Assembly: GCA_025357915.1 (NCBI GenBank)
Contig: JANYLH010000007.1
Location: 1 to 64,000 of the forward strand
Direction: 5' to 3'
Source: Gammaproteobacteria bacterium
GTDB lineage: Bacteria > Pseudomonadota > Gammaproteobacteria > Steroidobacterales > Steroidobacteraceae
Length of the DNA: 64,000 nt
The notes under the pieces are model-generated. The model had not been told where the DNA came from, did not search any database, and was given only the letters and a program-made list of their open reading frames with translations. Shown here piece by piece: positions 41,915 to 58,793 of the stretch (positions are counted from its first letter, which is position 1; each line of letters opens with the position of its first letter). Both the position numbers and the translations under genes were made by a program.

Positions 41915-43192
41915 GTGATAGAAAAGCGCGTGGCAACCCAACCCTTCAATCCTCGCCCGCGGTCCCTTGCCGCGCTGCTTGCGCTTGGCCTTTTGGCCGG
42001 CTGCGGCGGCGACCTGGGCGGCGGCGGCACGGTCGTGCCGGGCAGCAACGTGGCCTCCATCTTTGTCGACGGTGGGCCCGCCGGCGCGGTCAACGGCGTC
42101 AACGCGGCCTATGTATCGGTCACGGTGTGCGCACCGGGCTCGACCACCAACTGCCAGACCATCGATCACGTGCTGCTCGATACCGGCTCGACCGGCCTGC
42201 GGTTGCTGGCCACGGTGGCCGGCAGTGCCCTGACCTTTCCGCAGCAAGCGACGGCGGCCAGCGATCCGCTATGGGAATGCCTGGGCTTTGCCAATAGCTA
42301 CGCCTGGGGCAGCGTCCGCCTCGCGGATGTCCAGATCGCCGACGGCAAGGCCATGAGCCTGCCCATCCAGCTGATCGCCGACCCTTCGGCACCCGCCCCA
42401 CCCACCGACTGCACTTCACCGCTGACGCAGCCACCACCGCTCCCCGTGGATACCGTGGCCGCGCTCAATGCCAACGGTGTGCTGGGCGTGGGCGTGTTTC
42501 GCGAGGACTGCGGTACGGCCTGCAACAGCCCGCCGCCGCCAAACGTCGGCTATCAATACTACGTGTGCACGCCCGCCTGTGCAGGCGCCCTGGTGGCCAC
42601 GGCGCTGCAGGTGCAGAACCCCGTGTTCCGCTTCACGACCAACAACAACGGCGTGGTCATCGACCTGCCCGCCGTAGGCGCAGCCGGCTCCTTCGGCGCC
42701 CGCGGCTCGCTGATCCTGGGCATCGGCACCCAGAGCAACAATGCGCTGGGCACTGCCACGGTGCTGGCGACCGACCCCGCGACGGGCTTTGTGATCACCG
42801 ACTACAACGGACTGCCGCACGCCAATAGCCTCATAGACTCAGGTTCGCGGGGCATTTATTTCGATGACGCAGCCATTACCGCCTGTCCGGTCGGTAGCGT
42901 CGCCGAGGGGCTCTACTGCCCTGGCACGCCGCTGCCGCTTTCGGCTACCGTCCGCGACACCAATGGCGCCTCGGTCACGGTCAGTTTTTCGGTGGGCGAT
43001 GCGTTCAGCTTGCTGGACCCCGGTCCGCCAGCGTCGCCCAGCGCCAACTACAACGCGTTCAGCAATTTCGCGGGGCCGTTTCCCACAGCGGACGCCACCG
43101 CGTTTGACTGGGGCCTGCCGTTCTTCTACGGACGCAAGGTGTTCGTGGGCATCGAGGGCCAGTCGGCCACGGGGCCGTACTTCGCGTTCTGA
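41915..43192 (+). CDS. DUF3443-like lipoprotein with two aspartic-protease-like motifs
   Basis: 425 residues. A lipoprotein signal ends at a lipobox LLAGC (residue ~30) followed by a Gly-rich spacer. Two motifs recall the two lobes of pepsin-type enzymes: LLDTGSTGLRLL (about 88-99) and LIDSGSRGIYF (about 306-316). Eight or more cysteines suggest disulfides. The DUF3443 assignment is from memory of the family; its activity is unknown to me. GTG start at 41915, or GTG 41930. It is 66 bases after typA and convergent with the next gene. Confidence 0.75.
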   Translation: MIEKRVATQPFNPRPRSLAALLALGLLAGCGGDLGGGGTVVPGSNVASIFVDGGPAGAVNGVNAAYVSVTVCAPGSTTNCQTIDHVLLDTGSTGLRLLATVAGSALTFPQQATAASDPLWECLGFANSYAWGSVRLADVQIADGKAMSLPIQLIADPSAPAPPTDCTSPLTQPPPLPVDTVAALNANGVLGVGVFREDCGTACNSPPPPNVGYQYYVCTPACAGALVATALQVQNPVFRFTTNNNGVVIDLPAVGAAGSFGARGSLILGIGTQSNNALGTATVLATDPATGFVITDYNGLPHANSLIDSGSRGIYFDDAAITACPVGSVAEGLYCPGTPLPLSATVRDTNGASVTVSFSVGDAFSLLDPGPPASPSANYNAFSNFAGPFPTADATAFDWGLPFFYGRKVFVGIEGQSATGPYFAF

Positions 43193-43195
43193 TCT

Positions 43196-43214
43196 GCGCT
43201 GCACGCGGCAGCGC
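43196..43214. terminator. Hairpin between convergent genes
   Basis: GCGCTGC and GCAGCGC form a perfect 7-base stem with loop ACGCG, sitting exactly between two convergent stop codons. It could end transcription both ways, though no U run is seen. Confidence 0.45.
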
Positions 43215-43804
43215 TAGCGTTCGCCGTCCATGAAGCGCACGTAGCGCGTGAGCGCACGCCGCTGGTCATCCCACAGTTCGTAGCTGACCGTCTCCTCGCC
43301 AAGCTGCGTCTGCACCGCGAGGCTCCGCGCCGCAGCGATGAAGCGGAGCGTGGCCAGGTCGGTCGGGAACACCAGCGGATTGATATCCTGCCCCGGCGGT
43401 GCGTGCACCGCACGCGCGATGCCCAGGTCGGAGGGCGTCTTGCCGTTGGCCTCGAGCCTGATGCGGCGATCGTCGGCGATCAGCAGGAGCGAATCGGCGA
43501 GCGCCGAGGCGGGCGCATAGCGCGGGTCGAGAGTCGACCAGACGTAGGCGATCAGCACGTATTCGAGCTTGCCGCCACGATCAACCGAAGCGGCGGCGAG
43601 CGTGACGTAGTCGCGCAGGTTCGCGGCGCGCTCGCTGCGTTCGCGCGCGAAGATCAGGGGCGAGTCGACCACGTCGACGGTGGCGCCGGTCTGCTCGTCG
43701 AGGTATTCCTCGGGCTGTGGCACGGCCCGTCCGCCAGAGGCACCGGCACTGACGGCCAGCGCGCCCAGCCACAGCGCAGACAGAAACCATTGACGCGGCG
43801 CCAT
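43214..43804 (-). CDS. Exported protein of unknown function, last gene of the multiheme locus
   Basis: 196 residues with a signal peptide (hydrophobic 7-23) and a soluble domain without cysteines, heme motifs or recognised fold. Its ATG overlaps the stop of the outer-membrane barrel gene by one base (TGATG), so it is very likely co-translated with it and may assist the barrel or cytochromes in the periplasm. Confidence 0.7.
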   Translation of the reverse strand: MAPRQWFLSALWLGALAVSAGASGGRAVPQPEEYLDEQTGATVDVVDSPLIFARERSERAANLRDYVTLAAASVDRGGKLEYVLIAYVWSTLDPRYAPASALADSLLLIADDRRIRLEANGKTPSDLGIARAVHAPPGQDINPLVFPTDLATLRFIAAARSLAVQTQLGEETVSYELWDDQRRALTRYVRFMDGER

Positions 43805-46260
43805 CAGAACCCGATGCGGTAAGCAAGACTCACATAATAGCGCGATGTCTTCTGCGTCTGTACCGTGGCATCGCGCTTGCCCAGCTGGCCGCCGACCTCG
43901 AACTGCAGCAGGCGCCGGCCGCGCTGGTAGTCGATGAGCGCCGAAGGCAGGAACGACAGCTCGGTGCTGCCGTCGCTGCTCAACTGGCGATGGTCGATGG
44001 TCAGGCGCGGCCCGAGCCGCCAGTCGCCGCCGATCGGCATGCGGCTGGTCGCGGACAGCGAGCTGATCTTGCCCGTTTCGGTGTCGGCGTAAGCCACGCT
44101 GAGCACGTTGAAATCGCCCTTCCGCCACAGGTTCGAGCCATAGACCTGCGCCTGGTAGGACAGCGTCACTCCGGTGGCCGGCTGTGCGGGCACACCGCCA
44201 CTGGCGGGCGAGGCGCCGATTTTCGCCGCGTCCACGGTCGCCGAGAACTGGAAGCGCTGTCCGAGCGGCCGCGTTGCAGTCAGGCTGTAATTGGACGATA
44301 CGGCAGTGCGATCGCGCGCCAGCTGCAATATCTCATCGTCCGTAAACAGTGTCCGCAACTCGGCGATGATCGTCGTGCCCTGGCCGATCAGCGCGTTGCG
44401 GAGCGAGATGACCGGAGCGTTGCGCTTTTCGGCGTCGAAACTCAGGCTCCAGCGGTCGGGAAGCTGCACGGTGCCCAGCAGCGCCGCGGCATTCAGCGAC
44501 TTGAAATAGACGTCGTAATCGACCAGCGCCGTCAGTGAACTGTGGGGCAAGAGCAGGCGAGCCTCCAGGCCGGCGCCGCGCCGATCGGTGAAGCCATCGA
44601 AGCGCTGCTGCGCAAAGAACACGCTCGCATCCCAGTGCGCGCCCGGCGGCGTGTACGGAATGGCGATGGCCCAGAAGTTACGTCCGCGCTGAATCCCGCC
44701 GCTGGTCCGCTCAACCGGGTAACCAGCGGCAATATTGACGCCCAGCGCCGGCAGGAATTGCCATGAGGCAAAGGCGCCGTCGAAGGTGCCGAGCACGCCG
44801 CCGCCGTTGTTCGACTGACGGCCGAGGCGGGCCACCAGCCCCCACTTGCGGTCGGCAATCTCAAAGGACGCCACGCTGATGCGCTTGGTGGAGTCACCCG
44901 TGCTGGTGGCGGAGGCGCCGGCAAAATTCTTCGAGTAACCGGCGCTGACGCGGCCCATGAGGTCAAAGCGCTCGCCGCGCCGCCGCGCCAGCAGGTCGAT
45001 GTCGTTGTAGAGCGAATTCTGTTTCTGGCTCTGGCTGCCGTTGGGCACGACGCCGGTGCTGCCCGAGGCGGTATTGCTGACCGTCGAGCTGTCGTTCCGA
45101 TACATCTGCGCGAAGCCGCCGCTGAGGTTCCAGCCCTTGGCCGCCTCGCCCCCGCCGCCCGTGCCGGTGCGCGCACTGGTCGAGGCAGCGCGCAGTGTCG
45201 CCAGCCGGCGCGCAATGCGTTCGGCCGCCTCGCCCGCCGGGTAGCGGCGCAGATACTCCTCGTATTCGGCCTTGGCGTGGGCCAGCTGGCTCGCGCGTTC
45301 GCGCGCCAGGCCCAGCTGTTCCTGCATCGCGGCCCGCTGCGGGAACTCCGGCTGGCGCTGGAGTTTGGTGAGCGTGGCGATGGCAGCCGGGTAATTGCGC
45401 GCCGTCATGGCAACACGCGCCTCCGCCACGAGCTTGGCCAACGCGGCCGGATCGAGCGCCGGGTCGGCGCCGATCCGTTCCACCGCCGGCAGCACTTCTG
45501 CGCTGCCGCTCCCGGCAGCTGCGCTGACGTCGTCGCCAATCGCCAGCCAGGCGCGCGGATAGTCGGCGAGCGCCTGGTTAAGGAGCCGCTCGGCATCGGC
45601 GCGCTTGTCGAAGGGGCCCGCACGCAGGCGATACCAGGTCTGCTCGTCGACCACGGCCTGGCTTACGAACACCGGCGCCTTGAGCCGCTCGCGCGCCAGC
45701 TGCAGCTTCTCGGGCGCGAAATCCTTGGGCTGGGATTCCAGGTTGACGGCATAGGTGCTGACCGGGCCGGACGGTTCGTTGATCATGACCTTGCCGCGGC
45801 CGCGGGCGCGATCAATCAGTCGCAACCGCAGGCCGCGCGGATCGACGCCCTGCGCCAGCACGTAGCGTTCAGCCTTGCGGAAGCTGAACACCAGCGTGAC
45901 CTGGCCGGGCACATCGGATTCGACGCGCACGGCGTCGACAATGTGCTCGCCGCCTGAGAGCGGTGGCAGTTCGCCGGCAATCTGCGTGCCCGGCGTCAGC
46001 TGGCAATCGCCCTGCGGCTGCAGCTGGATGCGCAGTTCCTTCGATTCCGCGGCGGGCTGGTGCGTGATATAGCGCAGCGAACAGGTGAACTGCGCGACGA
46101 TGTCAGCCTGGTCGTCGTGATCATTGAGCTCGATGATATCGACGAAGCGCCCGGGGCCTGCCCCGGAGAGTTGCGCTATCGCCGCGTGGCCCAGGCCAAA
46201 CGCGGCAAATAGCGCAAATCCGAACCCCGCTGCCCGCACCCTAGTGCTTGAAGGCGGCAT
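43804..46260 (-). CDS. Outer-membrane beta-barrel protein with SPOR and TPR-like domains
   Basis: 818 residues. Signal peptide (about 1-29), a beta-rich N-terminal domain (40-165), a SPOR domain (about 168-243, TYAVNLESQ to AWLAIGDD), a helical TPR-like stretch (270-360), a Gly-rich linker, then about 440 residues of alternating strands ending SLAYRIGF with terminal Phe. The last part should be a large outer-membrane barrel. SPOR domains usually bind peptidoglycan, so this protein would span from cell wall to outer membrane. It overlaps the giant cytochrome gene by 20 bases, which suggests a working partnership like MtrB with MtrA, but no sequence likeness to MtrB was recognised. Confidence 0.8.
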   Translation of the reverse strand: MPPSSTRVRAAGFGFALFAAFGLGHAAIAQLSGAGPGRFVDIIELNDHDDQADIVAQFTCSLRYITHQPAAESKELRIQLQPQGDCQLTPGTQIAGELPPLSGGEHIVDAVRVESDVPGQVTLVFSFRKAERYVLAQGVDPRGLRLRLIDRARGRGKVMINEPSGPVSTYAVNLESQPKDFAPEKLQLARERLKAPVFVSQAVVDEQTWYRLRAGPFDKRADAERLLNQALADYPRAWLAIGDDVSAAAGSGSAEVLPAVERIGADPALDPAALAKLVAEARVAMTARNYPAAIATLTKLQRQPEFPQRAAMQEQLGLARERASQLAHAKAEYEEYLRRYPAGEAAERIARRLATLRAASTSARTGTGGGGEAAKGWNLSGGFAQMYRNDSSTVSNTASGSTGVVPNGSQSQKQNSLYNDIDLLARRRGERFDLMGRVSAGYSKNFAGASATSTGDSTKRISVASFEIADRKWGLVARLGRQSNNGGGVLGTFDGAFASWQFLPALGVNIAAGYPVERTSGGIQRGRNFWAIAIPYTPPGAHWDASVFFAQQRFDGFTDRRGAGLEARLLLPHSSLTALVDYDVYFKSLNAAALLGTVQLPDRWSLSFDAEKRNAPVISLRNALIGQGTTIIAELRTLFTDDEILQLARDRTAVSSNYSLTATRPLGQRFQFSATVDAAKIGASPASGGVPAQPATGVTLSYQAQVYGSNLWRKGDFNVLSVAYADTETGKISSLSATSRMPIGGDWRLGPRLTIDHRQLSSDGSTELSFLPSALIDYQRGRRLLQFEVGGQLGKRDATVQTQKTSRYYVSLAYRIGF

Positions 46261-49200
46261 CGCTTACCCGGTGATACGGCCCTGGCATCGGCTTGGCGAC
46301 CGTGCCCAGCGTCGCGTCACTGTATACATGGCAGGCACCGGTGCAGTTGCGCAGTTCGCCCGCGGTGTACTTCAGGCCATCGAGCGACTTCGGGTGCAGA
46401 TCCGGGCGGAAGTTCTTCGCGTGACAACCGGCGCAGCTACCGGTATCGGCCGGCGAAGCCCAGGGGATCTGCTCGGTGTTGCTGGTGTGGCAGGCCACGC
46501 AGGTCAGCGCAGCACGATGCTCACCCGGGTACGCCGCCGAGGCGTGGGCGAAATGCAGCACCGCCCAGTCCGGATAGCTATGGCAGGTCGCGCAGTCGCG
46601 CGTCATGACCATGTGCGTCGGCGTCACGCCCAGCGCAATGTTGTTGTCGTGGCAACTCGCGCAGCTGGCCGTCAGCCGGGTGTGATCAAGCCTGGCGGGT
46701 TTCCAGCCCAGCGTGCCATGGCAGGTATCGCACTGCGCGCTGGTCGGCACGTGGTTGGCCGGGAGCCCGGTGGCATGCAAGGAGTCGTGACAGGTCCTGC
46801 AGGTGTGCGCCGCCACGCCGACGTGATCGAAGTGCGCCGGCGTCCAGGCGTTGGTGGTATGGCAGGTCTCGCAGGTATCGCTGCTGGCGATGTGCTTGCT
46901 GCCCCTGCCCTTGGCCGCTGTGCCGTTGTGGCAGCTCACGCAGCTGCCCTTGACCTGCATATGATCGACGCGCGCGACCGGCAGCCAGGCCGCTGTCATG
47001 TGACAGCTCTCGCAACTGTCGCTGGTGGCGATGTGGCTGGCGGGCATGCCGATGCCGCTGGTCGGGCCGTGGCAGCTGACGCAGGCGGTGCCGGCGACGC
47101 GCCGGTGGTTGAAGCCCGTCGCGCCACCCAGCGAAGCGGCAGCGCTCAGCGCCGGGGCAGACCCCGCGACGGCGGTCCCCTTCTGGGTCGCATTGGCCGC
47201 CGCGCCGCGCCGCGTGGCGTACCGGTCGCGCGTGGAATGACATCCTGAGCCCCCGCAGTCCTGGCCCTTGTAGTGGTTCGCGCCATCGCGCACCCAGAGC
47301 CTGACGCCGGTGTTGGTCTTCCACTGCATGCCGAGTTCATGACAGTCCACGCATTTCATGGCTCTGACGACCGCGTGCTTCATGATCGTGCCGGCGAAAC
47401 TCGTGAACACCGTCGGCACATGGCACAGCTCGCAGGCAAAATTGTGTGCGCTGCTGTTGGGAGGATTGGTGGGAATGTGCCCGGTCGGCCCCGATGGTGG
47501 CTGCTTGAGCGCCGGCGGCGCGATGCCCGCGAAGCTCAGCCCGTAGGCGTGGCACTGCATGCAGTTGCTGGTGATGTTGACGTGGCTCATCACCGCCAGG
47601 CTGTAGTTGCCCGGCGTGGTGTGGCACAGCGCGCAATTGTTTTTGTCGGCTGCCGGAAGCGGAATGTGATTGGACGGCAGATCCGTGGCGCCCTTGAAGC
47701 TCGTGGTGTTGAAGTGGCAGGTGTTGCATTCACCTGCGACCACGTGCGCCGTGCCGTCCGCCTTCAGATCGGGGCGGACCTTGGTCGCGGGTGTGCCGAT
47801 CCAGGTCTTGCCCTTCTGGTGACAGGTCGAGCAGGCGATCGAAGTGACCACGCTGTGCACCATCGCCGAGGGCGACGTGTTGCTCACGTTGTTGAACATG
47901 AAAGTGTCGAAGGCCGTCTTCGAATGACACCCTTCGCAGGCGATCGTGCCAGTCGGGATGTGCGTTGCAGGCAGGGTCACCGTACGTTTTGGCGTAACGC
48001 CAACGTCCGTCTTGCCGCTGCCGTGACAGGTGATGCAGGCCACGCCGGCGACCGCCGTGTGCACCATGGCGGGCGGCGCCGTACCGCTCTGGTTCGGTAT
48101 CTTGAAGCCGCCAGGCTGCGTAAAGGTCGAGCTCGAATGGCACGCCTCGCAGGCCGCGGCGCCAAAGGGCACGTGCGTGGCCGGCGCCATGACCAGCACC
48201 GGAGCCGCCATGTTGGCAAAGCTCTTGCCGACCGCATGGCAGGTCGCGCAGACCGTGCTGACCAGGGCGTGGCCGGCGGACCCCATCGTGTAGACGGCAA
48301 AGTCGCCCCCGCCGGTGTGGCAGGTGCCGCAGTTGGCCGACTGGCCATTGGTCAGCGGAATGTGATTGGCCGGATAGTTCGTCGCACCCTGGAAGGTACT
48401 CGTCGACTTGTGGCAATCGGAGCACTCCCCGCTAACGGGGTGTGGCGGGTTCCCCGTCTGATGGGGCTCCGTCAACGGGCGCACGACGGTCGGCGGCGTG
48501 CCGGCGTCGGTCTTGCCTTTCTCATGGCAGGTCGAGCACACGGTTGCCGCCACCACGGTGTGCACCATCCCGGGAGGACTCGTGTTACTGGCGTTGCCAA
48601 ATCTGAAGGTGTCGAAGGCAGTGCTCGAGTGGCAGCTCTCGCAGGCGGCGCCCGCGAACGACACGTGGTTGTTCGCCGGTTGCTTCAGTACCGGCGGCGC
48701 CATGTTGGCGAAACTCTTGCCGGCGGCGTGGCAGGTCGAACAGACGTTGCTCACCAGGGCGTGTCCCGCGGTGCCCATCGCATAGGTGGCAAAATTGTTG
48801 GGGTCGGCGTGGCAGGTCGTGCAATTGGCTGACTGTCCGTTGGTGAGCGGAATGTGATTGACCGGGTAGTTGGTCGCGCCCTTGAAGCTGGTCGTCGACT
48901 TGTGGCAATCCGAGCACTCGCCGCTGGTCGGATGCGTAGCCCCGGAAGCTTCGAGGATCGGTCGCACGACCGTCGGCGGCACACCGACGTCAGTCTTGCC
49001 CTTCTCGTGGCAGGTCGAACAGACGATCGAGGTGACCACGCTGTGCACCATGGACGCAGGCACCGTGCCGCTGGCGTTGGTGAACTGGAACGTATTGAAG
49101 TTGCTGCCGGAATGGCAGCCGCCACAGGCGATCGCGCCGGTGGGGATGTGATTGACGGACGAGATCGTGACGGTGGCCTTCGGGGCTGTGCCGAAATCGG

Positions 49201-50428
49201 TCACTCCCGCACCGTGACAGGTGACGCACGCGGTCGCCGCCACGGCCGTGTGCACCATTGCCGGCGGCGTAGCGCCACTCTGGTTCGGAATCCGGAAACC
49301 GCCCGGGGTCGTGAAAGTCGCGTTCGAATGGCAGCTCTCGCAGGCCGCGCCACCGAAGTTAATGTGTCCGGACATCGGCGAGTTGGGCATCACCAGCACC
49401 AGCGGCGCCATGTTCGTGAAGCTGGACCCGTCGGCATGGCAGGTTGCGCAGGCGTTCGTGATGCCCGTGTGATCCATGATCTTGGTGGTGAAATCGCCAG
49501 GGACCGTATGGCAGAGCGTGCAGGGCTGCGCGGTGGGAATGTGACCAACGGGCTGCAGGTTGCCGGTGGCGAACGACACCGTGGACAAATGGCATATGCC
49601 GCAATCGCCAGTGGCCGGGTGGACCACGCCGCGCACGGTATCCGGGCGGGTCACGATGGTGGGGCCGATGAAGCTGCGGCCTTTTTCATGGCAGTCGGCG
49701 CACTGCAGGGGCGGGATCAGATTCGGCGCCAGGTGATTCATCGCCGTGCCGGAGAAGGAAACGTAGTTGGTCGGCGTGTGGCAGGCCTCGCAGGGCGCAT
49801 TGCCCACGTCGGCCTGGTTGGGCGAGAGCCCGGTCGGTATATGGGTCGGCGGCGCGCCCTTGGCGCCGGCGCCGTTGTGGCAGCTCTTGCAGCCGGTAGT
49901 CACATTGGTGTGATTGAACACCGCTCCGCCCCAGCCAATGGTGGAGTGGCAGAGGTTGCATTCGAGCGAAGTGTCGATATGCCCCGGCCCCTTACCCTGG
50001 GCCTTGCCCTTTTCGCCAGTGTGACAGCTCGAGCAGCTGCCGCGCGTTTCAGCATGATCGAAGTTGACCGCCGGACTCCAGGCCACCGGCGTATGACAGG
50101 CCTCGCAGCGATTCGAACTGAGAATATGATCGACGGTCTTGCCGGGCGCGCGCACGGCGGTGCCGACGCCGTGGCAGGCGGCGCAGTCCTTCGGGGTGCC
50201 CTTGAATATCGCGTTGACGTGGCAGGATTCACACGGCAGGTCGCGATGCTGGCCGATCAGCTCAAAGCCGGTAGTGAGGTGGTCGAAGGGCGTGCGGTCG
50301 GCGGCGTGCGCGCTGCCCACTGACAGCAGCAGCGCGGCGCTCACCGCGATGGCGACCAGCCAGGGTCGTACCGCCAGCGCGGCATGGACCGGCAGGAACT
50401 GCAATGAGAATCGTTTTGCGTTGTTCAT
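46241..50428 (-). CDS. Giant multiheme c-type cytochrome (42 CXXCH plus two variant motifs)
   Basis: 1395 residues from ATG 50428 (AGGA site 7 bases upstream). Sec signal with cleavage likely after residue 42 (AHA). I count 42 canonical CXXCH motifs, one CX4CH (CGGSGCH) and one CX3CH (CTGACH), giving up to 44 hemes. Three blocks are seen. An N-terminal block (hemes 1-11) and a C-terminal block (from the 33rd canonical motif on) share the pattern FDH..GSCxSCHxG..KG..HI. A central block is built of internal duplications. A polar Ala/Gly linker precedes the last block. No lipobox or membrane anchor is present, so it should be periplasmic or secreted. It lies between genes for a 21-heme cytochrome and an outer-membrane barrel. 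A role in long-range electron conduction is inferred. Confidence 0.9.
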   Translation of the reverse strand: MNNAKRFSLQFLPVHAALAVRPWLVAIAVSAALLLSVGSAHAADRTPFDHLTTGFELIGQHRDLPCESCHVNAIFKGTPKDCAACHGVGTAVRAPGKTVDHILSSNRCEACHTPVAWSPAVNFDHAETRGSCSSCHTGEKGKAQGKGPGHIDTSLECNLCHSTIGWGGAVFNHTNVTTGCKSCHNGAGAKGAPPTHIPTGLSPNQADVGNAPCEACHTPTNYVSFSGTAMNHLAPNLIPPLQCADCHEKGRSFIGPTIVTRPDTVRGVVHPATGDCGICHLSTVSFATGNLQPVGHIPTAQPCTLCHTVPGDFTTKIMDHTGITNACATCHADGSSFTNMAPLVLVMPNSPMSGHINFGGAACESCHSNATFTTPGGFRIPNQSGATPPAMVHTAVAATACVTCHGAGVTDFGTAPKATVTISSVNHIPTGAIACGGCHSGSNFNTFQFTNASGTVPASMVHSVVTSIVCSTCHEKGKTDVGVPPTVVRPILEASGATHPTSGECSDCHKSTTSFKGATNYPVNHIPLTNGQSANCTTCHADPNNFATYAMGTAGHALVSNVCSTCHAAGKSFANMAPPVLKQPANNHVSFAGAACESCHSSTAFDTFRFGNASNTSPPGMVHTVVAATVCSTCHEKGKTDAGTPPTVVRPLTEPHQTGNPPHPVSGECSDCHKSTSTFQGATNYPANHIPLTNGQSANCGTCHTGGGDFAVYTMGSAGHALVSTVCATCHAVGKSFANMAAPVLVMAPATHVPFGAAACEACHSSSTFTQPGGFKIPNQSGTAPPAMVHTAVAGVACITCHGSGKTDVGVTPKRTVTLPATHIPTGTIACEGCHSKTAFDTFMFNNVSNTSPSAMVHSVVTSIACSTCHQKGKTWIGTPATKVRPDLKADGTAHVVAGECNTCHFNTTSFKGATDLPSNHIPLPAADKNNCALCHTTPGNYSLAVMSHVNITSNCMQCHAYGLSFAGIAPPALKQPPSGPTGHIPTNPPNSSAHNFACELCHVPTVFTSFAGTIMKHAVVRAMKCVDCHELGMQWKTNTGVRLWVRDGANHYKGQDCGGSGCHSTRDRYATRRGAAANATQKGTAVAGSAPALSAAASLGGATGFNHRRVAGTACVSCHGPTSGIGMPASHIATSDSCESCHMTAAWLPVARVDHMQVKGSCVSCHNGTAAKGRGSKHIASSDTCETCHTTNAWTPAHFDHVGVAAHTCRTCHDSLHATGLPANHVPTSAQCDTCHGTLGWKPARLDHTRLTASCASCHDNNIALGVTPTHMVMTRDCATCHSYPDWAVLHFAHASAAYPGEHRAALTCVACHTSNTEQIPWASPADTGSCAGCHAKNFRPDLHPKSLDGLKYTAGELRNCTGACHVYSDATLGTVAKPMPGPYHRVSDAAFKH
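48060..49030 (-). repeat. Tandem internal duplication in the giant cytochrome gene
   Basis: Two adjacent copies, about 161-164 codons each and carrying five hemes each, are closely similar in DNA and protein. CSTCHEKGKTD, GECSDCHKST, NHIPLTNGQSANC and GHALVS recur in both, at an offset of 492 bases in the middle and 483 at one end. Similarity extends at a larger period, since the segment around the 12th-15th motifs resembles that around the 24th-27th. This points to stepwise growth by nested duplication. Confidence 0.8.
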
Positions 50429-50436
50429 AAAAATTC

Positions 50437-52002
50437 CTACCGGGCTCGGCCGCCCTGGAATGTCACCGTACCGTGGCAGCGTTGGCACTGCCTCCCGAAC
50501 TGGCCTGCGTGGATGTCATCCTTCTGATGACACGACACGCAATCCTGCGAAAGCTTCACTTCGGCCGCGGGCCTGCGATGGCAATCGGCGCACTTGATCT
50601 TACCGTGCGCGCCCGACAAGGCGAAACCTGTCTGTTTTTGGTGATCAAATACCCACACGGCCCAGGCGTTGGGCGTGTGACAGGTATCACACTTGTCGCC
50701 GAGCCCGCCTTTGTGGACGTCGTCTTTCTTGTGGCAATCGATGCAGCGGGACTTCACGTCAGTGAAGGCCTGGGTGCGATGGCACTGCGCGCAGCTGACG
50801 ACGTTATGTAAACCGAGCAGTGGGAATTTTGTCAGGTCGTGATCGAAGCTGATGTCGCTGTGCCAGTCCTGCTGGCCGTGGCAGCTGTCGCAGGCGGTCT
50901 TGAACTTCGCACCGTGCGGATTCGCCGCCTTGTGGCAGGCGACGCAGTCGCTGCCGAGTTTCTGTGTAGCGACGCTCGCGGTATGGCAAACATGGCAATC
51001 GAGTTTGGCATGAATGCCAACCAGCGCGAATTTGGTCTGCGCCAGGTGGTCGTACTTCACCGGCCGCCACTCGTCGTTACCGTGGCAGCTTTCGCATTTA
51101 ACCCCCAGGCGCCCGGCGTGCGAATCGTCCGCCTTGTGGCAGCCGACGCAGTCCTTCGGGAGTTTGTCCTTGAAATTGCCGCTCCGGTGACACCCCAGGC
51201 AATCCATCCTTGAGTGATGCCCGAGCAGCGCGAAGCCCGTCTGCTTCAGGTGATCGAACTTTGCTTCCTTCCAGCCCGTGGTGGTGTGGCACTTGCCGCA
51301 GTCATCGCCACGCTCGCCGCGGTGCGCATCGTCAGTGGCATGGCAGCCGACGCACACCTTGGGCGCCGGCTTATAGCGGCCGCCCAGGTGGCAGCCGCCG
51401 CAGCTCACTTCCAGGTGCGAGCCGGTAAGCCCGAACGCCGTCTTGCTGTGATCGAAGCGCGCGCCCGCCCAGCTGTCCGGATTGTGGCAGTCGCCGCAGG
51501 TGGCGGCCAGCTGCCCCTCATGATAATCGTCTTTCTTGTGGCAGCTGAGGCAGGCGGGCTCGGCCTTGCGGTAGGCCTCGCCGCTCTTGTGACAGCTCGC
51601 GCAGGCGAGCGCGCGATGCGCGCCTGCCAGGGTGAAGCCGGTGCGTTCATGATCGAACTCGAGCTTGTTCAGGCGCACGATGTCACCGTCGCGCCCCAGG
51701 TGCTCGGTGTGGCAGCCGACGCACTTGCCGGCGCCCGCATTGGGCATGCGCCCGTGGTACCCGCGGCGGTCGCGCACGTCGGCGGCGATGTCCTTGTGAC
51801 AGGCGAGGCACAGCGCGCTCTGACGCCCCCGGTCGGTGCGGTCGTGGCAATTGGTGCAGGTCTCCTCGAGCTTGGCGTGGGCGTTGGCGATCTTGCCGGG
51901 CATGAGCAGGGCCTCGACGGAAGTCGCATGCGCGGTCGCCGCGCTCACCAGGCTTGCTGCTGCCACCACTCGCACGAACCAGTGCACTCCTGTGCGTCTC
52001 AA
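50437..52002 (-). CDS. 21-heme c-type cytochrome
   Basis: 521 residues with a signal peptide (hydrophobic region about 8-25, ending TAHA). It has 21 CXXCH motifs in a regular array, with the recurring unit FDHxxTxFxLxGxHxxxxCxxCH and DCVxCHxxDDxHxG, as in cytochrome c3/paired-CXXCH families. The start is TTG 52002 or one of several GTG codons just inside. Eight bases separate its stop from the giant cytochrome ATG. Likely a periplasmic electron carrier taking electrons from the membrane cytochrome b encoded upstream. Confidence 0.9.
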   Translation of the reverse strand: MRRTGVHWFVRVVAAASLVSAATAHATSVEALLMPGKIANAHAKLEETCTNCHDRTDRGRQSALCLACHKDIAADVRDRRGYHGRMPNAGAGKCVGCHTEHLGRDGDIVRLNKLEFDHERTGFTLAGAHRALACASCHKSGEAYRKAEPACLSCHKKDDYHEGQLAATCGDCHNPDSWAGARFDHSKTAFGLTGSHLEVSCGGCHLGGRYKPAPKVCVGCHATDDAHRGERGDDCGKCHTTTGWKEAKFDHLKQTGFALLGHHSRMDCLGCHRSGNFKDKLPKDCVGCHKADDSHAGRLGVKCESCHGNDEWRPVKYDHLAQTKFALVGIHAKLDCHVCHTASVATQKLGSDCVACHKAANPHGAKFKTACDSCHGQQDWHSDISFDHDLTKFPLLGLHNVVSCAQCHRTQAFTDVKSRCIDCHKKDDVHKGGLGDKCDTCHTPNAWAVWVFDHQKQTGFALSGAHGKIKCADCHRRPAAEVKLSQDCVSCHQKDDIHAGQFGRQCQRCHGTVTFQGGRAR

Positions 52003-52018
52003 AATCGGTCTCTCGGGC

Positions 52019-52867
52019 TCAGTACACGTTGACCGAAATCACGTGCACGATTCCAGCCACCAGCGTCATGATGAAAAATGGCACGTGCGCCACGTGCCAG
52101 AGCGAGAACAGCTTGACGTACATACCGTGCTCGCGCACCCGGCGCGCCGCGTCCAGGCGGCGCGTGGCGTAGCCCATCGCCGTGGCCGTCAACCGCGCGC
52201 CGTGAGCCGCCAGCGTGGGCGACTGCCGCGCTGCCTCGATCACCATATGGCGAATCTGGCCGTCGAGGCGCCAGCGCGCCAGCACCGAGCGCATGCCGAT
52301 CGTGACCGGATACAGCACTGCGCCCAGCGGTGATTTAGCCGGGCGAAACAGCCGCTTCTCCTCCGCCTCAATGGCGCTGAGGAAGTTGGGCAGCAGCGTC
52401 ACCGTGGTGGTCTGCTTGCGCAACTGCTCGGCCACGGCCTGGAGTTCCTCGAGCGAACTCTTGTGATTATCCCAGCCGTCGTAGACGCGGGTGTAGATAT
52501 AGCGCCCGATCAGTCCGCTGCCCGAGACCAGCAGCATGCACACCAGCGCGACGTTGCTGTTGGTGGCGCCGAGTGAAAAATTCGCGTGAAACAGCACCAG
52601 CAGCGGACCGACTACGCCGAGGGTCATGTGAGCCTTGAACCACCCCGGCACGCCGCCGAAGATCTTCAGCCAGGCGGCGCGCTTGCGCGCCGGGTACATC
52701 AGCAGCACCAGCATCATCGAGCCGCCGATGATGCCAAGCGCGTAGCCCAGCCCGCGGTCCGGCGTGATATAGTGATCGAGCCGCACGTTCAGGCCCCACA
52801 CGATCGCCAGGCAAACCACCAGGCCGAAGGCGCGTACCGGCGTCAGATGGCGCGCGATCAGGCCCAT
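52019..52867 (-). CDS. Membrane diheme-type cytochrome b
   Basis: 282 residues. About five hydrophobic helices. Two pairs of histidines are each 14 residues apart: His80/His94 in one helix and His261/His275 in the last, the classic arrangement for two b hemes held between two helices. A long soluble loop lies between (about 130-245). It probably links the quinone pool to the periplasmic multiheme cytochromes encoded downstream. The gap to the 21-heme gene is 16 bases and to the CcmI-like gene 3 bases, so all are one operon. Confidence 0.8.
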   Translation of the reverse strand: MGLIARHLTPVRAFGLVVCLAIVWGLNVRLDHYITPDRGLGYALGIIGGSMMLVLLMYPARKRAAWLKIFGGVPGWFKAHMTLGVVGPLLVLFHANFSLGATNSNVALVCMLLVSGSGLIGRYIYTRVYDGWDNHKSSLEELQAVAEQLRKQTTTVTLLPNFLSAIEAEEKRLFRPAKSPLGAVLYPVTIGMRSVLARWRLDGQIRHMVIEAARQSPTLAAHGARLTATAMGYATRRLDAARRVREHGMYVKLFSLWHVAHVPFFIMTLVAGIVHVISVNVY

Positions 52868-52870
52868 GGG

Positions 52871-54136
52871 CTAGCCGATCACCTTCTGGATGACGATGCG
52901 CACCGGCTTTGCGGCCGCGGGATCGAGTTGCGCCGTAACGCCCTGGAAGTCACCCGCCGCGGGCATCGCCTGCCCGGTCCGGGAGGTACGCGCCTCGATC
53001 GTGACGGGACCCGCCGAGGACAGGTTGCGCGAGGGCACCATGGCCTGCGAATCATCGAGCTGAAACGATACCGGCCACGAGCCCGTAGTCGTGCGCCAGA
53101 TCGCCACCGGTGGCCCTGGCGAATTCACCGACTTGGCCACGATGAACAGCGTCAGCCCGGCGGGTACCTTTCCCTTGAGGGCGTCAGCCAGCACGACTTC
53201 GCCGCGTACGATCACGCCGCCGGCCGCAGCGGCGGTGGCCGTGGCCGTGCCGCCACCGCCGCCAGCCAGCCGCTGGTCTTCAGCGAGATTCGCGGCAATC
53301 ACCTTGGCGTCTGCCGAGTTCGGGCCCAACGCCGCCGCCAGCCGCTGCCAGCTGCTCACCGCGGCCGGGTACTGGCGGGCCTCATGCTGCATGCTCGCCT
53401 GGAGCCACAGTGCCTTGGGATGCTGCGGATTGAGGCGCAGCGCGTTGCCCAGGTAGGTTGCTGGTGTGCCGAGGAGCGAACGGCCATTGAGCGATGCGGC
53501 GACGTCGGCGTAGTCCGCCCAGGTGTCGGCGGTCATTTCATTGCGTGCGGCGAGCTTCGCGTACAGTTTGTCCGCAGCGGCAAAATCGCGCCGGGATCGC
53601 GCCGCATCGGCGGCGGCGGCCAGTTTCGTCCCCTCAGTGGACAGCGACACTGCTGCGGCGGCAGCGAGTGGCCCCGCGGCGGCGCCCGCTCCGGCGGGCA
53701 GGCGCTTCTGGCGAGCCAGCGCGGCGTCATCCGGCCGGCCCATGAATTCATAGGACTTGGCCAACAGCTCCCAATCGCCATCTGCGCCGCCGCCCGCGGC
53801 AAGGCGACGCTCGAGCCCGGAAACCGCACTGTCCATGGGCCCGGCGGGCTGCTTCTGTGCCGGCGCCGCGCCAGGCTCGCCGGCCATCGCGCCACTCGCG
53901 GTGCCCGGCGTGGTGCCGGGGGTGGCATCCTGGTCATTCAGCTGCGGGCTGCCAAGCTTTATGTAAAGCACCAGCACCGCCACCAGCGCGGCGGCTCCGG
54001 CCACCGGCACCCAGCGCGGCAGGCCGCTGAGCATGGCAAGGCGCGGCTTGCCTGCGAGCCACGGATATACGGCGAACAGCAGCGCCACGGTCGCCAGGAC
54101 GCCTGCGGCAAAAAAGAAGGTGTTACCAGAATTCAT
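52871..54136 (-). CDS. CcmI-like cytochrome c biogenesis protein
   Basis: 421 residues. Two N-terminal helices (about 5-25 and 45-62), a soluble TPR-type domain (about 105-285) and a C-terminal beta domain. The order and the segment VIVRGEVVLADALKGKVPAGLTLFIVAKS fit CcmI/CycH, which holds unfolded apocytochromes for heme attachment. First gene of the multiheme operon. A dedicated chaperone copy would suit the attachment of some 65 hemes to the two cytochromes. Confidence 0.82.
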   Translation of the reverse strand: MNSGNTFFFAAGVLATVALLFAVYPWLAGKPRLAMLSGLPRWVPVAGAAALVAVLVLYIKLGSPQLNDQDATPGTTPGTASGAMAGEPGAAPAQKQPAGPMDSAVSGLERRLAAGGGADGDWELLAKSYEFMGRPDDAALARQKRLPAGAGAAAGPLAAAAAVSLSTEGTKLAAAADAARSRRDFAAADKLYAKLAARNEMTADTWADYADVAASLNGRSLLGTPATYLGNALRLNPQHPKALWLQASMQHEARQYPAAVSSWQRLAAALGPNSADAKVIAANLAEDQRLAGGGGGTATATAAAAGGVIVRGEVVLADALKGKVPAGLTLFIVAKSVNSPGPPVAIWRTTTGSWPVSFQLDDSQAMVPSRNLSSAGPVTIEARTSRTGQAMPAAGDFQGVTAQLDPAAAKPVRIVIQKVIG

Positions 54137-54354
54137 GCTATTAAGATGTTCTTAACGCGCCTTACGCACAATGTCACGAATTGTAAAGCCTCCACCAAGG
54201 GCGTCACACTGTCGCTACTGCGGGACACGTCACAATTGGCGACAAAACTGGCGACATGTTGACACGTGCGCCGACTCACGGAAGCCTAGCAGCATGTACA
54301 TTAATCTCCGTTCGATGTGTAACACAAAGCGCCAGGCTGGTTGAGGCTAAAGGC
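54137..54354. promoter_or_regulatory. Divergent control region of the multiheme locus
   Basis: 218 bases between two divergent operons, more AT-rich than the flanks. TGGCGACA occurs twice as a direct repeat (54237-54244 and 54249-54256, 12 bases apart), and TGTCGC, the inverse of its core, lies at 54210-54215. These may be regulator sites. No clear sigma54, FNR or Fur site was recognised. Confidence 0.45.
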
Positions 54355-55665
54355 ATGAACTCGAGCCTGATCGTCATCTACGCCGCACCGCTCGTGGTCA
54401 CCATGTACTGGTACCTGCGGCGGCATTTCCGTATGGAAAACCACAGCCGCGCAGTCCACTTCGAGGCGAAGGAGGCGGGGCTTCTGGAACCCGCGTCGAT
54501 CCATCCGGTCATCGATCCGGTCCGCTGCCTCGGTTGCGGCGCCTGCGTGCGCGCCTGCCCCGAGTACCCGCAGCACACCGTGCTCGGTCTCATCGACAAC
54601 AAGGCGCATCTGGTCGCGCCGACTGAATGCATCGGGCACAGTGCCTGCAAGTCCGCCTGTCCGGTGGACGCGATTACACTGGTGTTCGGTACCGAGACGC
54701 GCGGCATCGACCTGCCGGTGCTCAATCCGAATTTCGAGACCAATGTTCCCGGCGTGTTCATCGCCGGCGAGCTCGGCGGCATGGGCCTGATCCGCAATGC
54801 CCTCACGCAGGGCGTCCAGGCGATGCAGGCGATCGCCAAGAAAGGCAACCGCGCGCCGGGCAAGCGCCTCGACGTGCTGATCGTGGGCGCCGGCCCCGCC
54901 GGCATGGGGGCCGCACTCACCGCCAAGTCGCTCAACCTCAACTACCGCTGCATCGAACAGGAATCGCTCGGCGGCTGCGTCTACAAGTATCCACGCGGCA
55001 AACTGGTCATGACCGCGCCGGTCGAGCTGCCGCTGGTGGGCAAGTTCCATTTCCGCCAGACCTCCAAGGAAGCGCTGCTCGGGGTGTGGACCGAGATCAT
55101 GAAGCAGCAGGAACTGCTCATTCAGTGCAATGAGCGCATTGAGGCCGTGGAGAAGGAAGGCGATGGTTTCATCGTCCGCACCACCAAAGACGTGTATCAG
55201 GCCTCGAACGTCCTGCTCGCCATCGGCCGACGCGGCACGCCGCGCAAGCTCGCGGTGCCCGGGGAGGAATTGCCGAAAGTCGTGTACCGCCTGATCGACC
55301 CCGACCAGTACATCGGCCAGGAAGTGCTGGTGGTGGGCGGCGGCGACAGCGCGCTCGAGGCCGCCGCGAGCATCGCGGAAGTGAGTGGCACACAGGTCAC
55401 GCTGTCCTACCGCGGCGATGCCTTTGGCCGCGCCAAGCCGAAGAACCGGCAGCGCGTCGCCGCGGCCGCCGACCGGGGCAACCTGAGACTCCTGCTGTCC
55501 TCGAACGTCAGTCACATCCACGACGACCTCGTGATCCTGGAACAGGGCGGCAAGAAAGTGGAAATCCGCAACAAGGCCGTGATCGTCAGCGCCGGCGGAG
55601 TGCTGCCCAACGAATTCCTCAACAAGGTCGGGATCCGCGTCGAAACCAAGTACGGTACGGCCTGA
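54355..55665 (+). CDS. Membrane-anchored iron-sulfur flavoprotein oxidoreductase
   Basis: 436 residues from ATG 54355. One N-terminal helix (about 5-21), then a ferredoxin-like part with cluster 1 cysteines 58, 61, 64 and 68 (CLGCGACVRACP). The second cluster has Cys92, Cys98 and Cys102, but His95 in place of the second cysteine (CIGHSACKSACP). From about 170 a thioredoxin-reductase-like domain has FAD motif VLIVGAGPAGMG and NAD(P) motif VLVVGGGDSALEAA. It probably moves electrons between NAD(P)H and a membrane or iron-sulfur partner. Divergent from the multiheme operon and followed immediately by the ankyrin gene. Confidence 0.82.
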   Translation: MNSSLIVIYAAPLVVTMYWYLRRHFRMENHSRAVHFEAKEAGLLEPASIHPVIDPVRCLGCGACVRACPEYPQHTVLGLIDNKAHLVAPTECIGHSACKSACPVDAITLVFGTETRGIDLPVLNPNFETNVPGVFIAGELGGMGLIRNALTQGVQAMQAIAKKGNRAPGKRLDVLIVGAGPAGMGAALTAKSLNLNYRCIEQESLGGCVYKYPRGKLVMTAPVELPLVGKFHFRQTSKEALLGVWTEIMKQQELLIQCNERIEAVEKEGDGFIVRTTKDVYQASNVLLAIGRRGTPRKLAVPGEELPKVVYRLIDPDQYIGQEVLVVGGGDSALEAAASIAEVSGTQVTLSYRGDAFGRAKPKNRQRVAAAADRGNLRLLLSSNVSHIHDDLVILEQGGKKVEIRNKAVIVSAGGVLPNEFLNKVGIRVETKYGTA

Positions 55666-57644
55666 TGAGCCGCGCGATGCGCTACCGGCTGGCGGCGCTG
55701 GCAGTGGCTGCCGTGCTGGCCGCCGGCGAGCTCAACGCTGCCGCACCAAAGGCGCCCGACCCGCTCGATGGCGCAAGGCTCGCGCTGCGCACCCGCGATT
55801 TTCCGACCGCTCTCGCCAAACTCCAGCTGAGCGCAAACGCCGGTAACGCCGAAGCGCAGCTGCTGCTCGGCCTCGTGCACCTCAACGGCGTAGGCACCGC
55901 CATCGACCGCGCGGCCGCCGAAACCTGGCTGTCGAAAAGCGCGGCGCAGAACAACGCCACGGCTCTGTACGTACTCGCCGCCCTGACCGCCAACAAGGCG
56001 GACGCGCGGCCCGGTGAGGCGCAAGCCCTGCTGCACAGGTCCGCTGCGCTCGGCTATCCGGCCGCCGTCGAGGACGAACGCGCCCGGCGCACGCCGCTCA
56101 GTCCGGAGTGGGCCGGGCTCGGCGAGTCCACGCTGCGCGTGGACCTCGCCATATACAGCGCCCGCAACGGCGACCTCGCCTGCCTCGGGACGCTGGGCGC
56201 CGGACTCAAGGAAATGCGCGATGTATTTGGCGCCACCGTGCTCGCGCATGCTGCGGCGGCCGGTGCGCTGGCGTCCGTGCAGTTCCTGATCGAGGGCGGA
56301 AGCAATGTGAACCGCGCCGACAGTTTTGGCGTGACACCGCTCATGCACGCTGCCGGGCTCGCGGACCCGCAGGTGCTCGAGCTGCTGCTGGCGAAGGGCG
56401 CGTCGGTCAACGCGGCCGACAATCAGCAGCGCACGGCGCTCTTTTATGCCGCGCGCGCCGATCGCGTCGCGGCCGTCACCGCGCTCGCCAAAGCCGGCGC
56501 GAAAGTGGACGCTGTCGACAGCCGCAACTACACCGCGCTGGATGCCGCGCTCACCGTGGACGCCAATCAGGCGGCAGCGCTGCTGCGCTCGCTCGGCGCG
56601 AAGACCCTGGTTGTGCATGCCAGTCGCCAGAGCACGGCCGGGAAATTCGACGCCGCCCGGCCGGGCGACATCTATCGGGGCTGGCCGGTAATCGCCCTCG
56701 CGGTAGCGCGCGGCGACACGGAATCGGTGCAGAGACTATTGGCCGGCGGCGCTGATGCCAACAGCCGCTCCGCCCAGGGCGACACGCTCCTGCACATCGC
56801 GATCCACGCCGGTTCCGAAGCCGGCGTCAAGGCGCTGCTCGCGGCGCACGCCAATCCGCGCCTGCCGGACAAGCGCGGCCGCACCGTGCTGGTCCTGGCG
56901 GCTACGCGCGGCGAGCTCAGCATTGTCAATGCCCTGCTGGCGGGCGGAGTCAACGCCGATACGCACGCCGACAAGGAATCGACGCCGCTTCTGGCGGCAG
57001 TGCGTGCCGGACGCATGGAGGTTGCCCAGAGCCTGCTGGCCGCGGGCGCAAAGCCCGACGCAGCCGACGAGCGCGGCGAGACGGCGCTCCACGCCGCCGC
57101 GAGCGCCGCCAACGACCCGCTCGTGAAACTCCTGCTCGCCAAAGGCGCCAGCGTCGACCTGGCTGACCGTGAGGGCCAGACGCCGCTGTGGCGCGCGGCC
57201 CGCGCCGGCGCAGCGGGGGCGGCGCGCTCGCTGCTGGCGGCCAATGCTGACGCCAACGCGGCCGCCAAGGAAGGCCTTACGCCGCTGATGAGCGCGATCG
57301 ACGCGGGCCAGGAACCGCTGGTGACGATCCTGCTGCAGGCACACGCCCGCGCTGATGTGAAGGCGGCACGCGGCGATACGCCGCTGATGCTGGCTGCGGT
57401 GCACGGCAGCGAGGCCATGGTGCAATTGCTCCTGCAACGCTCAGCGGCCGTGAATGCCCAGAACCAGGACGGCGACACCGCATTGATGGTGGCCAGCCGC
57501 GCCGGCAACGCCGCGGCGGTCAAGGCGCTGCTGGCGTCCGGGGCCAGCAAGGCGCTGCGCAACAACAAGCGGGCGACCGCGGGCGATGTGGCGCGCGACC
57601 GCGGTTTTGCGGCGCTGGCCTCGGCCATTGAAGGCGAGGGTTAG
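55665..57644 (+). CDS. Exported Sel1-like plus ankyrin-repeat protein
   Basis: 659 residues. A signal peptide (about 1-24) is followed by two or three Sel1-like helical repeats (about 35-125) and at least a dozen ankyrin repeats (about 165-650; recurring GxTPLxxAxxxGxxxxVxxLLxxGAxxN). Such scaffolds bind proteins. Its ATG overlaps the flavoprotein stop by one base (TGATG), so the two are co-translated. A periplasmic assembly or docking role for the multiheme system is inferred. Confidence 0.85.
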   Translation: MSRAMRYRLAALAVAAVLAAGELNAAAPKAPDPLDGARLALRTRDFPTALAKLQLSANAGNAEAQLLLGLVHLNGVGTAIDRAAAETWLSKSAAQNNATALYVLAALTANKADARPGEAQALLHRSAALGYPAAVEDERARRTPLSPEWAGLGESTLRVDLAIYSARNGDLACLGTLGAGLKEMRDVFGATVLAHAAAAGALASVQFLIEGGSNVNRADSFGVTPLMHAAGLADPQVLELLLAKGASVNAADNQQRTALFYAARADRVAAVTALAKAGAKVDAVDSRNYTALDAALTVDANQAAALLRSLGAKTLVVHASRQSTAGKFDAARPGDIYRGWPVIALAVARGDTESVQRLLAGGADANSRSAQGDTLLHIAIHAGSEAGVKALLAAHANPRLPDKRGRTVLVLAATRGELSIVNALLAGGVNADTHADKESTPLLAAVRAGRMEVAQSLLAAGAKPDAADERGETALHAAASAANDPLVKLLLAKGASVDLADREGQTPLWRAARAGAAGAARSLLAANADANAAAKEGLTPLMSAIDAGQEPLVTILLQAHARADVKAARGDTPLMLAAVHGSEAMVQLLLQRSAAVNAQNQDGDTALMVASRAGNAAAVKALLASGASKALRNNKRATAGDVARDRGFAALASAIEGEG

Positions 57645-57650
57645 CTCCGC

Positions 57651-58184
57651 CTAGTCGTCCCGCACGTCCTGTCCCGGGAATAACTCCTCGATGAAACCGA
57701 ACTTGCGCAGATCCTTGATGCGCGTCGGATAGAGCACGCCATCGAGGTGGTCGACCTCGTGCTGCACGACGCGGGCGTGGAAACCGGAAACCGTGCGATC
57801 GATCGGTCGGCCCCATTGATCAAAGCCCCGGTAACGAAGCCGGCGGTAACGTGGCACCATCCCGCGCATGCCGGGCACCGACAGGCACCCCTCCCAGTCG
57901 GACTCCCGGCCGCCACGCAGCGCCCTGAGCCTGGGGTTGACGAGCACCGTGTAGGGCACGGCGTCGGCATCCGGATAGCGCGGCGTGACGGCGCCCCCGA
58001 AAATCACCACGCGCCAGGCAACACCGATCTGCGGGGCCGCCAGGCCGGCGCCCTGGGCGGAGCGCATCGTGTCGTCCATGTCGGCGACCAGCTCCTGGAG
58101 CGCGGGCGTGCCAAATTCGCGTACCGGCGCGCTGGCTTGCAGCAGCCGCGGGTCGCCCATCCGCAGTAGGGGTCTGATGGCCAT
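57651..58184 (-). CDS. def: Peptide deformylase
   Basis: Removes the formyl group from new proteins. 177 residues with all three motifs: GAGLAAPQIG, EGCLSVPG (metal Cys) and QHEVDHLDG (HExxH). Convergent with the ankyrin gene with a 6-base gap. A 9-base-stem hairpin precedes its start. Confidence 0.97.
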   Translation of the reverse strand: MAIRPLLRMGDPRLLQASAPVREFGTPALQELVADMDDTMRSAQGAGLAAPQIGVAWRVVIFGGAVTPRYPDADAVPYTVLVNPRLRALRGGRESDWEGCLSVPGMRGMVPRYRRLRYRGFDQWGRPIDRTVSGFHARVVQHEVDHLDGVLYPTRIKDLRKFGFIEELFPGQDVRDD

Positions 58185-58206
58185 GAATCCCGAACCTCGA
58201 AGCTGG

Positions 58207-58781: not shown

Positions 58782-58793
58782 GCGGCGCGGATC

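Follow-up and report, generated by a model that had tools for sequence, protein, structure and literature searches.

What system do eight closely packed genes for multihaem cytochromes, membrane proteins and redox proteins encode in a gammaproteobacterium of the family Steroidobacteraceae, and from which source would its electrons come? The genes lie in a 64,000-nucleotide stretch of contig JANYLH010000007.1 (assembly GCA_025357915.1), referred to as a whole as the window, and an original prediction made from its sequence had described them as a candidate for a hitherto undescribed electron conduit. Our data bear out the look of a trans-envelope conduit, built from a cytochrome b in the membrane, multihaem cytochromes in the periplasm and at the surface, and an outer-membrane barrel, but not its novelty. 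With high confidence, the locus is a porin-cytochrome conduit of the type named PCC3 in 2017 (PMC5566968), as every PCC3 feature that could be tested is present, and the idea of a new system was dropped after comparison with the PCC3 of He et al. (2017). With similarly high confidence, the sequence comparisons described below point to an iron-sulfur (FeS) flavoprotein as a core partner in the system, which adds a near-constant fifth component to the four published parts. All our results rest on sequence and predicted structure.

As described by He et al. (2017; PMC5566968), PCC3 comprises a porin, an extracellular cytochrome, a periplasmic cytochrome and an inner-membrane protein (IMP). The latter has about 300 amino acids and five transmembrane (TM) helices, with SGXXG on TM4 and WX3HX13H on both TM3 and TM5, and was interpreted as a two-haem cytochrome b. 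The extracellular cytochromes were reported to have a median of 34 haem sites and a maximum of 85, the periplasmic ones a median of 21, at about 22-39 amino acids per haem (PMC5566968). In the window, a porin in the form of a predicted 22-strand barrel is encoded beside two multihaem cytochrome genes. The larger cytochrome carries 44 haem sites, one per 31.7 amino acids, and is rich in Thr, Ser, Ala and Gly; it would be located at the cell surface. The smaller, putatively periplasmic cytochrome has 21 CXXCH motifs, one per 24.8 amino acids, while the IMP is of the expected size (282 amino acids) and has the expected motifs and five TM helices. The porin, the large extracellular cytochrome, the 21-haem periplasmic cytochrome, the IMP motifs, the gene order and a density of 25-32 amino acids per haem are all shared with PCC3 as presented by He et al. 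(2017) and Hoover et al. (2023). Later work listed PCC3 clusters from Gallionellaceae and Leptothrix. Homology to the reference PCC3 clusters of Sideroxydans lithotrophicus ES-1 (Slit_0867-0870 and Slit_1446-1449) was assessed solely through a Gallionellaceae locus (L171), which holds a homologous IMP, barrel protein and flavoprotein, with 24- and 18-haem cytochromes in place.

The assignment of the porin as an outer-membrane barrel, already made in the original prediction, is upheld by its predicted structure. AlphaFold2 yields 22 long strands across residues 375-818, mostly at high confidence (mean pLDDT 82), and Foldseek retrieves outer-membrane barrels (best E 3.6e-10, 319 matches at E<=1e-3), so that this domain is not one predicted as soluble. 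The protein ends in Phe, as do 27 of 37 homologous frames. Pfam recognizes the SPOR domain (3.9e-06) and, below its cut-off, weak TPR repeats, and a profile search of PDB sequences with this protein returned TPR and SPOR proteins only. The overall plan, in which a barrel is combined with periplasmic and surface multihaem cytochromes, is shared with MtrCAB, MtoAB and PioAB. Membership in that group was nevertheless dropped at family cut-offs, in agreement with the earlier view that the parts are unrelated to MtrCAB: the barrel protein gives no match to MtrB/PioB (TIGR03509), and the cut-off of the decahaem family TIGR03508 (192.2 bits) is missed by both the 44-haem cytochrome (106.9 bits) and the 21-haem cytochrome (16 bits). 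Furthermore, MtrCAB-type systems use a quinol oxidase of the CymA/NapC type, whereas the locus described here has a cytochrome b and a flavoprotein. The same genome holds separate MtrC/OmcA-, MtrA- and MtrB/PioB-type proteins, all above cut-offs, in a cluster that also contains NapC-like (tetrahaem type) and PdsA-like proteins (L180, G000:C85:18000-36000); the sole TIGR03509 match of the genome sits on a different contig than PCC3. By its gene content, the organism thus appears to be equipped for extracellular electron transfer even apart from PCC3, which would be a further conduit.

The IMP is well defined by its motifs, W76-H80-H94, S117-G118-x2-G121 and W257-H261-H275. These residues (W76, H80, H94, S117, G118, G121, W257, H261 and H275) are invariant in 60 sequences, the one in the window and 59 homologues, and AlphaFold2 (mean pLDDT 90.5) places the motifs on helices that we take as TM3, TM4 and TM5. 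Between TM4 and TM5 lies a helical stretch of about 100 residues, cytoplasmic by charge, which in the model is a possible docking site. The protein is without a match in Pfam or NCBIfam, and a profile search of PDB sequences gave coiled-coil chance matches only.

The flavoprotein had been listed in the original prediction as no more than a neighbor, yet it proved to be the most conserved and most faithful partner. Our class-wide sample comprised 369 genomes, drawn evenly rather than randomly, in which an IMP was counted at E<=1e-20 and a flavoprotein at E<=1e-60. A PCC3-type IMP occurs in 42 of these genomes and the flavoprotein in 43, and the two agree in 366: 41 genomes have both, 325 have neither, one has the IMP only and two have the flavoprotein only (Fisher p 7e-51, a value computed as if the genomes were independent of each other, which is not the case). 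Among the exceptions to the pairing, one genome is 72% complete (G235) and another gives a partial match only (G156). Five genomes (G091, G094, G159, G357 and G374) carry two copies each of IMP and flavoprotein, and these matched double copies, together with the spread across many families, would argue against simple shared descent. In a separate sample of the phylum (378 genomes), all six carriers hold both proteins with very strong scores; the next IMP-like matches, at E 1e-22 or weaker, are without the flavoprotein and are set apart by a wide score gap. Sequence identity across the class is about 55-60% for the flavoprotein versus about 33-40% for the IMP. Starting from the flavoprotein, we found 80 named loci, with the IMP within reach in 67 and an ankyrin gene likewise in 67; many of the others are contig ends. 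The genes of the locus do co-occur in other genomes, in line with the original prediction. A gammaproteobacterial-type PCC3 cluster was also seen in a bin labelled Nitrospira (L105, JALWRU010000513.1), possibly as a result of mis-binning.

The pairing extends to more distant relatives. Plasmid pEMTOL02 of Emticicia oligotrophica (NC_018749.1, Bacteroidota; L203) carries a PCC3-like cluster in one apparent operon, with genes for CcsA, IMP, flavoprotein, 23- and 40-haem cytochromes and a barrel candidate all in the same direction. Its IMP has both WX3HX13H motifs and SGXXG, and ccsA replaces the CcmI-like gene. Distant IMPs outside PCC3 are, in 16 of 21 loci, encoded adjacent to an FeS flavoprotein of 800-940 amino acids whose flavin domain is homologous, and a decahaem gene comes next. 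An unnamed redox protein is mentioned for IMP-multihaem clusters by He et al. (2017; PMC5566968), but none for PCC3. The clusters that they list as PCC4 or other types share with our loci an IMP with two HX13H motifs beside a redox protein, which in the loci examined here contains FAD and FeS domains and, in the copy that was scanned, a cyclic-nucleotide-binding domain. They differ in their smaller cytochromes, in the porin that is mostly not reported and in a flavoprotein of 800-940 amino acids as opposed to the 436-residue anchored protein in the window. With the flavoprotein added, PCC3 would no longer be an exception among IMP-multihaem clusters. In the main texts of open-licence papers, we found no mention of the flavoprotein or the ankyrin protein in PCC3, nor of a cyclic-nucleotide FeS flavoprotein together with multihaem cytochromes. 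The loci with this pairing include one in the genome studied here, which thus contains a second, distant IMP (L181, G000:C38:50000-66000), encoded after a cyclic-nucleotide-binding FAD/FeS protein and before a frame with 10 haem sites and an FHA match.

What kind of protein is this partner? It has a single N-out/C-in TM helix at its N terminus and two ferredoxin-type cluster motifs. In 29 of 29 relatives, the net charge behind the TM helix is positive, and by the positive-inside rule the bulk of the protein should face the cytoplasm. Six Cys and one His are invariant in the cluster motifs, the second of which reads CxxHxxCxxxC and has this His where a Cys would be expected, while one Cys of the first is replaced by Ser or Thr in some relatives. 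The nearest PDB entry to the flavin domain is YpdA (7a7b, 148 bits, over the FAD and NADPH domains). The final YpdA segment (277-293, itself a weak match) precedes the first Rossmann motif in the flavoprotein, whose flavin domain appears to be circularly permuted. The FAD- and NADPH-binding fold is thus shared with the bacillithiol disulphide reductase YpdA and with thioredoxin reductase. In contrast to YpdA, however, the last FAD-binding segment is shifted forward, a TM helix and two FeS motifs are fused to the domain and the catalytic Cys is missing: GGGPCG of YpdA reads GAGPAG here, the catalytic position is non-Cys in 29 aligned relatives, and no CXXC of the thioredoxin reductase type was seen in the flavin domain. 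A role as a disulphide reductase was therefore dropped. Because the catalytic Cys of YpdA is replaced, electrons more likely exit via the FeS clusters, and the sequence suggests a flavoprotein in which NAD(P)H, FAD and FeS clusters exchange electrons and no disulphide is reduced.

At the other end of the conduit, the two cytochromes together have 65 haem sites (21 and 44), while shuffled proteins of the same composition contain on average 0.3-0.4 CXXCH and at most 4. Both cytochromes carry the Pfam repeats Cytochrome_C7 and Cytochrom_c3_2. The 21-haem cytochrome consists of seven three-haem units, with spacings of mostly 16-18, 18 and 32-33 residues. Among 94 complete proteobacterial copies of this protein, some of them near-identical, the number of CXXCH motifs is a multiple of three in all 94 (21 in 76 copies, 24 in 10, 18 in 7 and 27 in 1), with recurring spacings near 17, 18 and 33. 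Since the periplasmic-type cytochrome of Emticicia has 23 haems, this rule may fail outside Proteobacteria. The surface cytochrome, at its conserved position in relatives, has between 8 and 68 haem sites and in one case 144. This latter protein is a single open frame of 4086 amino acids with 133 CXXCH and 11 CX3-4CH (G270:C17, about 42976-55233; loci L071 and L096), compared with the maximum of 85 haem sites given for PCC3 by He et al. (2017). In two loci, a single PCC3 cluster holds two surface-type cytochromes, with 24 and 70 haem sites (L077) and 24 and 48 haem sites (L087). A set periplasmic length combined with a free extracellular length would fit a wire that bridges a fixed distance, and it had been proposed earlier that the periplasmic cytochrome of PCC3 may span the periplasm (PMC10734462). 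The combination of three-haem quantisation and a free surface haem count was not found in the literature searched.

On this basis, we propose a model for electron flow through the conduit. First, cytoplasmic NAD(P)H would reduce the FAD of the anchored flavoprotein, whose two FeS clusters would pass the electrons into the IMP, first to its b haem on the cytoplasmic side (H80/H261) and then to that on the periplasmic side (H94/H275). The 21-haem cytochrome, whose seven three-haem units would be long enough to cross the periplasm, would then carry them through the 22-strand barrel, the SPOR/TPR part of which may anchor the barrel in the periplasm, and the 44-haem surface cytochrome would lead them on to an acceptor outside the cell. 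Maturation of the haem-rich apoproteins would probably involve the CcmI-like protein, and the ankyrin protein would probably act as a scaffold in the periplasm. The net direction would probably be outward, resembling a ferric reductase or NADPH oxidase with an extension through the outer membrane. The analogy with these enzymes (FRD) is a functional one: two b haems are bound by HX13H pairs on two helices, and a cytoplasmic NADPH flavoprotein sends electrons to the outside. The systems differ in that the flavin domain here resides on a separate protein with FeS clusters, and the IMP gives no Pfam match to the FRD domain (PF01794). The analysis shows the gene content, the PCC3 hallmarks, the co-occurrence, the domains, the predicted folds and the three-haem module; the contacts between subunits, the loading of haems and clusters, the NAD(P)H donor, the direction and the substrate are what we infer in this model, and we give the full mechanism, with the flavoprotein as a core subunit, about an even chance of being correct.

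Electron transfer from the periplasmic side to the cytoplasm opposes the membrane potential, and transfer from Fe(II) to NAD(P)+ is uphill; for this reason, an NAD(P)H-linked path would favor outward flow. An outward direction is also suggested by S. lithotrophicus ES-1, in which levels of both PCC3 clusters were lower with Fe(II) than with thiosulfate (PMC8788666). The presence of the flavoprotein would make NAD(P)H the likely electron source, in place of the quinone pool on which PCC3 and MtrCAB have been assumed to draw. Extending this further, PCC3 and the wider IMP-multihaem family may be NAD(P)H-driven trans-envelope reductases, in which a two-protein module of flavoprotein and IMP bypasses the quinone pool and a length-quantised periplasmic wire, continued by a variable surface wire, brings reducing power from the cytosol to extracellular acceptors, much as a NADPH oxidase spanning two membranes would. 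We offer this broader view tentatively, its chances being somewhat less than even.

Several points weigh against an NAD(P)H-driven conduit. A conserved neighborhood is a functional link and not a direct electron path, the binding of NAD(P)H by the flavoprotein is derived from homology only, and the flavoprotein is not adjacent in some genomes (G093, G144 and G296). Foldseek found no PDB match for the IMP at E<=0.001, and its similarity to cytochrome b561 (4o6y; Z 7.0, root-mean-square deviation 3.7 over 134 residues) is within the range of common helical arrangements and is listed among unrelated helical bundles. Many PCC3 hosts are Fe(II) oxidisers, He et al. (PMC5566968) envisaged that the IMP exchanges electrons with quinones, and Sideroxydans sp. 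CL21 showed a rise of the IMP gene from a single PCC3 copy (copy 2) when its cells could oxidise iron (PMC12442390), which favors inward flow.

These last observations are in line with PCC3 as first proposed, wherein Fe(II), Mn(II) or minerals outside the cell give electrons that move inward through the barrel and the cytochromes to the IMP, which reduces the quinone pool, and the flavoprotein is an accessory or makes NAD(P)H uphill. Dihaem cytochromes b often exchange electrons with quinones, which adds to the case for this route. It is the published model, and several organisms that oxidise Fe(II) carry PCC3 (He et al. 2017, PMC5566968). Nevertheless, it does not account for a flavoprotein that equals the IMP itself in fidelity, nor for the pairing of distant IMPs with FeS flavoproteins; moreover, the lower level of the ES-1 genes on Fe(II) (PMC8788666) speaks against it, as does the lack of a rise on magnetite described for most PCC3 proteins. 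We consider inward flow to quinone unlikely, although it is the alternative to be taken most seriously. Rather improbable, in our estimate, is a conduit driven outward by quinol in the manner of CymA-MtrCAB, with the flavoprotein serving in regulation or filling the quinone pool. The full MtrCAB-type cluster and the NapC-type tetrahaem protein in the same genome do indicate an organism equipped for outward extracellular respiration, yet the fidelity of the flavoprotein and its FeS clusters beside a cytochrome b suggest a direct electron path.

The flavoprotein might instead be a maturation factor that, for example, keeps apocytochrome thiols or haem iron reduced for the 65 haems, together with CcmI or CcsA. 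It belongs to the thioredoxin reductase/YpdA group, and maturation genes are present in the cluster, CcmI-like here and ccsA in Emticicia. However, the reactive Cys of YpdA and the CXXC of thioredoxin reductase are both absent from the flavin domain, this domain is cytoplasmic while haem attachment is periplasmic, and related flavoproteins accompany far smaller decahaem cytochromes, all of which makes such a role very improbable. Least probable of all is that the multihaem proteins are mainly an electron store or cell-to-cell conductor instead of an oxidase or reductase of a particular substrate, an idea that draws on the extreme and freely varying haem number of the surface cytochrome (8 to 144) and on the capacitor raised earlier for PCC3 (PMC10734462), as the barrel and a periplasmic cytochrome of fixed length point to transport directed across the envelope.

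With respect to the locus itself, all eight genes were found with the positions and orientations originally given (Table 1). Their content and order had been described correctly, while three start codons were off; conservation places them at 50428 for the 44-haem gene, 43804 for the exported protein and 54355 for the flavoprotein. The genes are closely packed, some of them overlapping.

Table 1. Genes and intergenic region of the PCC3 locus, in window coordinates
Feature	Position	Strand	Remarks
Small exported protein, ~196 aa	43214..43804	-	Start MAPRQW at 43804; last gene of the operon
Outer-membrane barrel protein	43804..46260	-	Signal peptide, beta domain, SPOR ~169-242, TPR ~271-359, barrel 375-818
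Extracellular-type multihaem cytochrome, 44 haem sites	46241..50428	-	42 CXXCH + 1 CX3CH + 1 CX4CH
Periplasmic multihaem cytochrome, 21 CXXCH	50437..52002	-	Start codon TTG at 52002 uncertain
IMP, inner-membrane dihaem cytochrome b-like, 282 aa	52019..52867	-	5 TM helices, conserved motifs
CcmI/CycH-like membrane protein	52871..54136	-	Ig_CycH PF23892, 3.5e-27
Divergent intergenic region between two transcription units	54137..54354	.	
Membrane-anchored FeS flavoprotein, 436 aa	54355..55665	+	Fer4 + Pyr_redox_3 (Pfam)
Signal-peptide Sel1/ankyrin-repeat protein	55665..57644	+	Pfam ankyrin + weak Sel1

Beyond the five components discussed above, PCC3 loci often have genes for the ankyrin protein, the CcmI-like protein and the small exported protein as neighbors. 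The CcmI-like protein, which scores 94.7 bits for Ig_CycH against a Pfam cut-off of 27, is a probable dedicated apocytochrome chaperone; a second CcmI is encoded elsewhere in the genome (C3). The ankyrin gene usually directly follows the flavoprotein gene, and its product, with a hydrophobic N terminus in 67 of 68 homologous frames, is probably periplasmic. The small exported protein is without a Pfam or NCBIfam match and has homologues at the same position in several relatives. The divergent region between the two transcription units contains no convincing promoter or terminator, and an Rfam scan of positions 40000-60000 found no RNA family. Adjoining the ankyrin gene is a peptide deformylase-like gene (57651-58184), named from its sequence, whose position is kept in several relatives of the same genus, and an ApbE-like FMN transferase is encoded near the cluster, at 59658-60659 of the window.

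Among Proteobacteria, PCC3 is widely distributed, and its hosts include Fe(II) oxidisers as well as symbionts of invertebrates. The three-haem quantisation of its periplasmic cytochrome suggests that the periplasm is measured by a molecular ruler, and in its surface cytochromes the haem motifs of a single chain number up to at least 144. The near-obligate FeS flavoprotein provides a concrete candidate for the cytoplasmic end of PCC3 and, as opposed to the published model of inward flow to quinone, predicts electron flow that is linked to NAD(P)H and probably directed outward.

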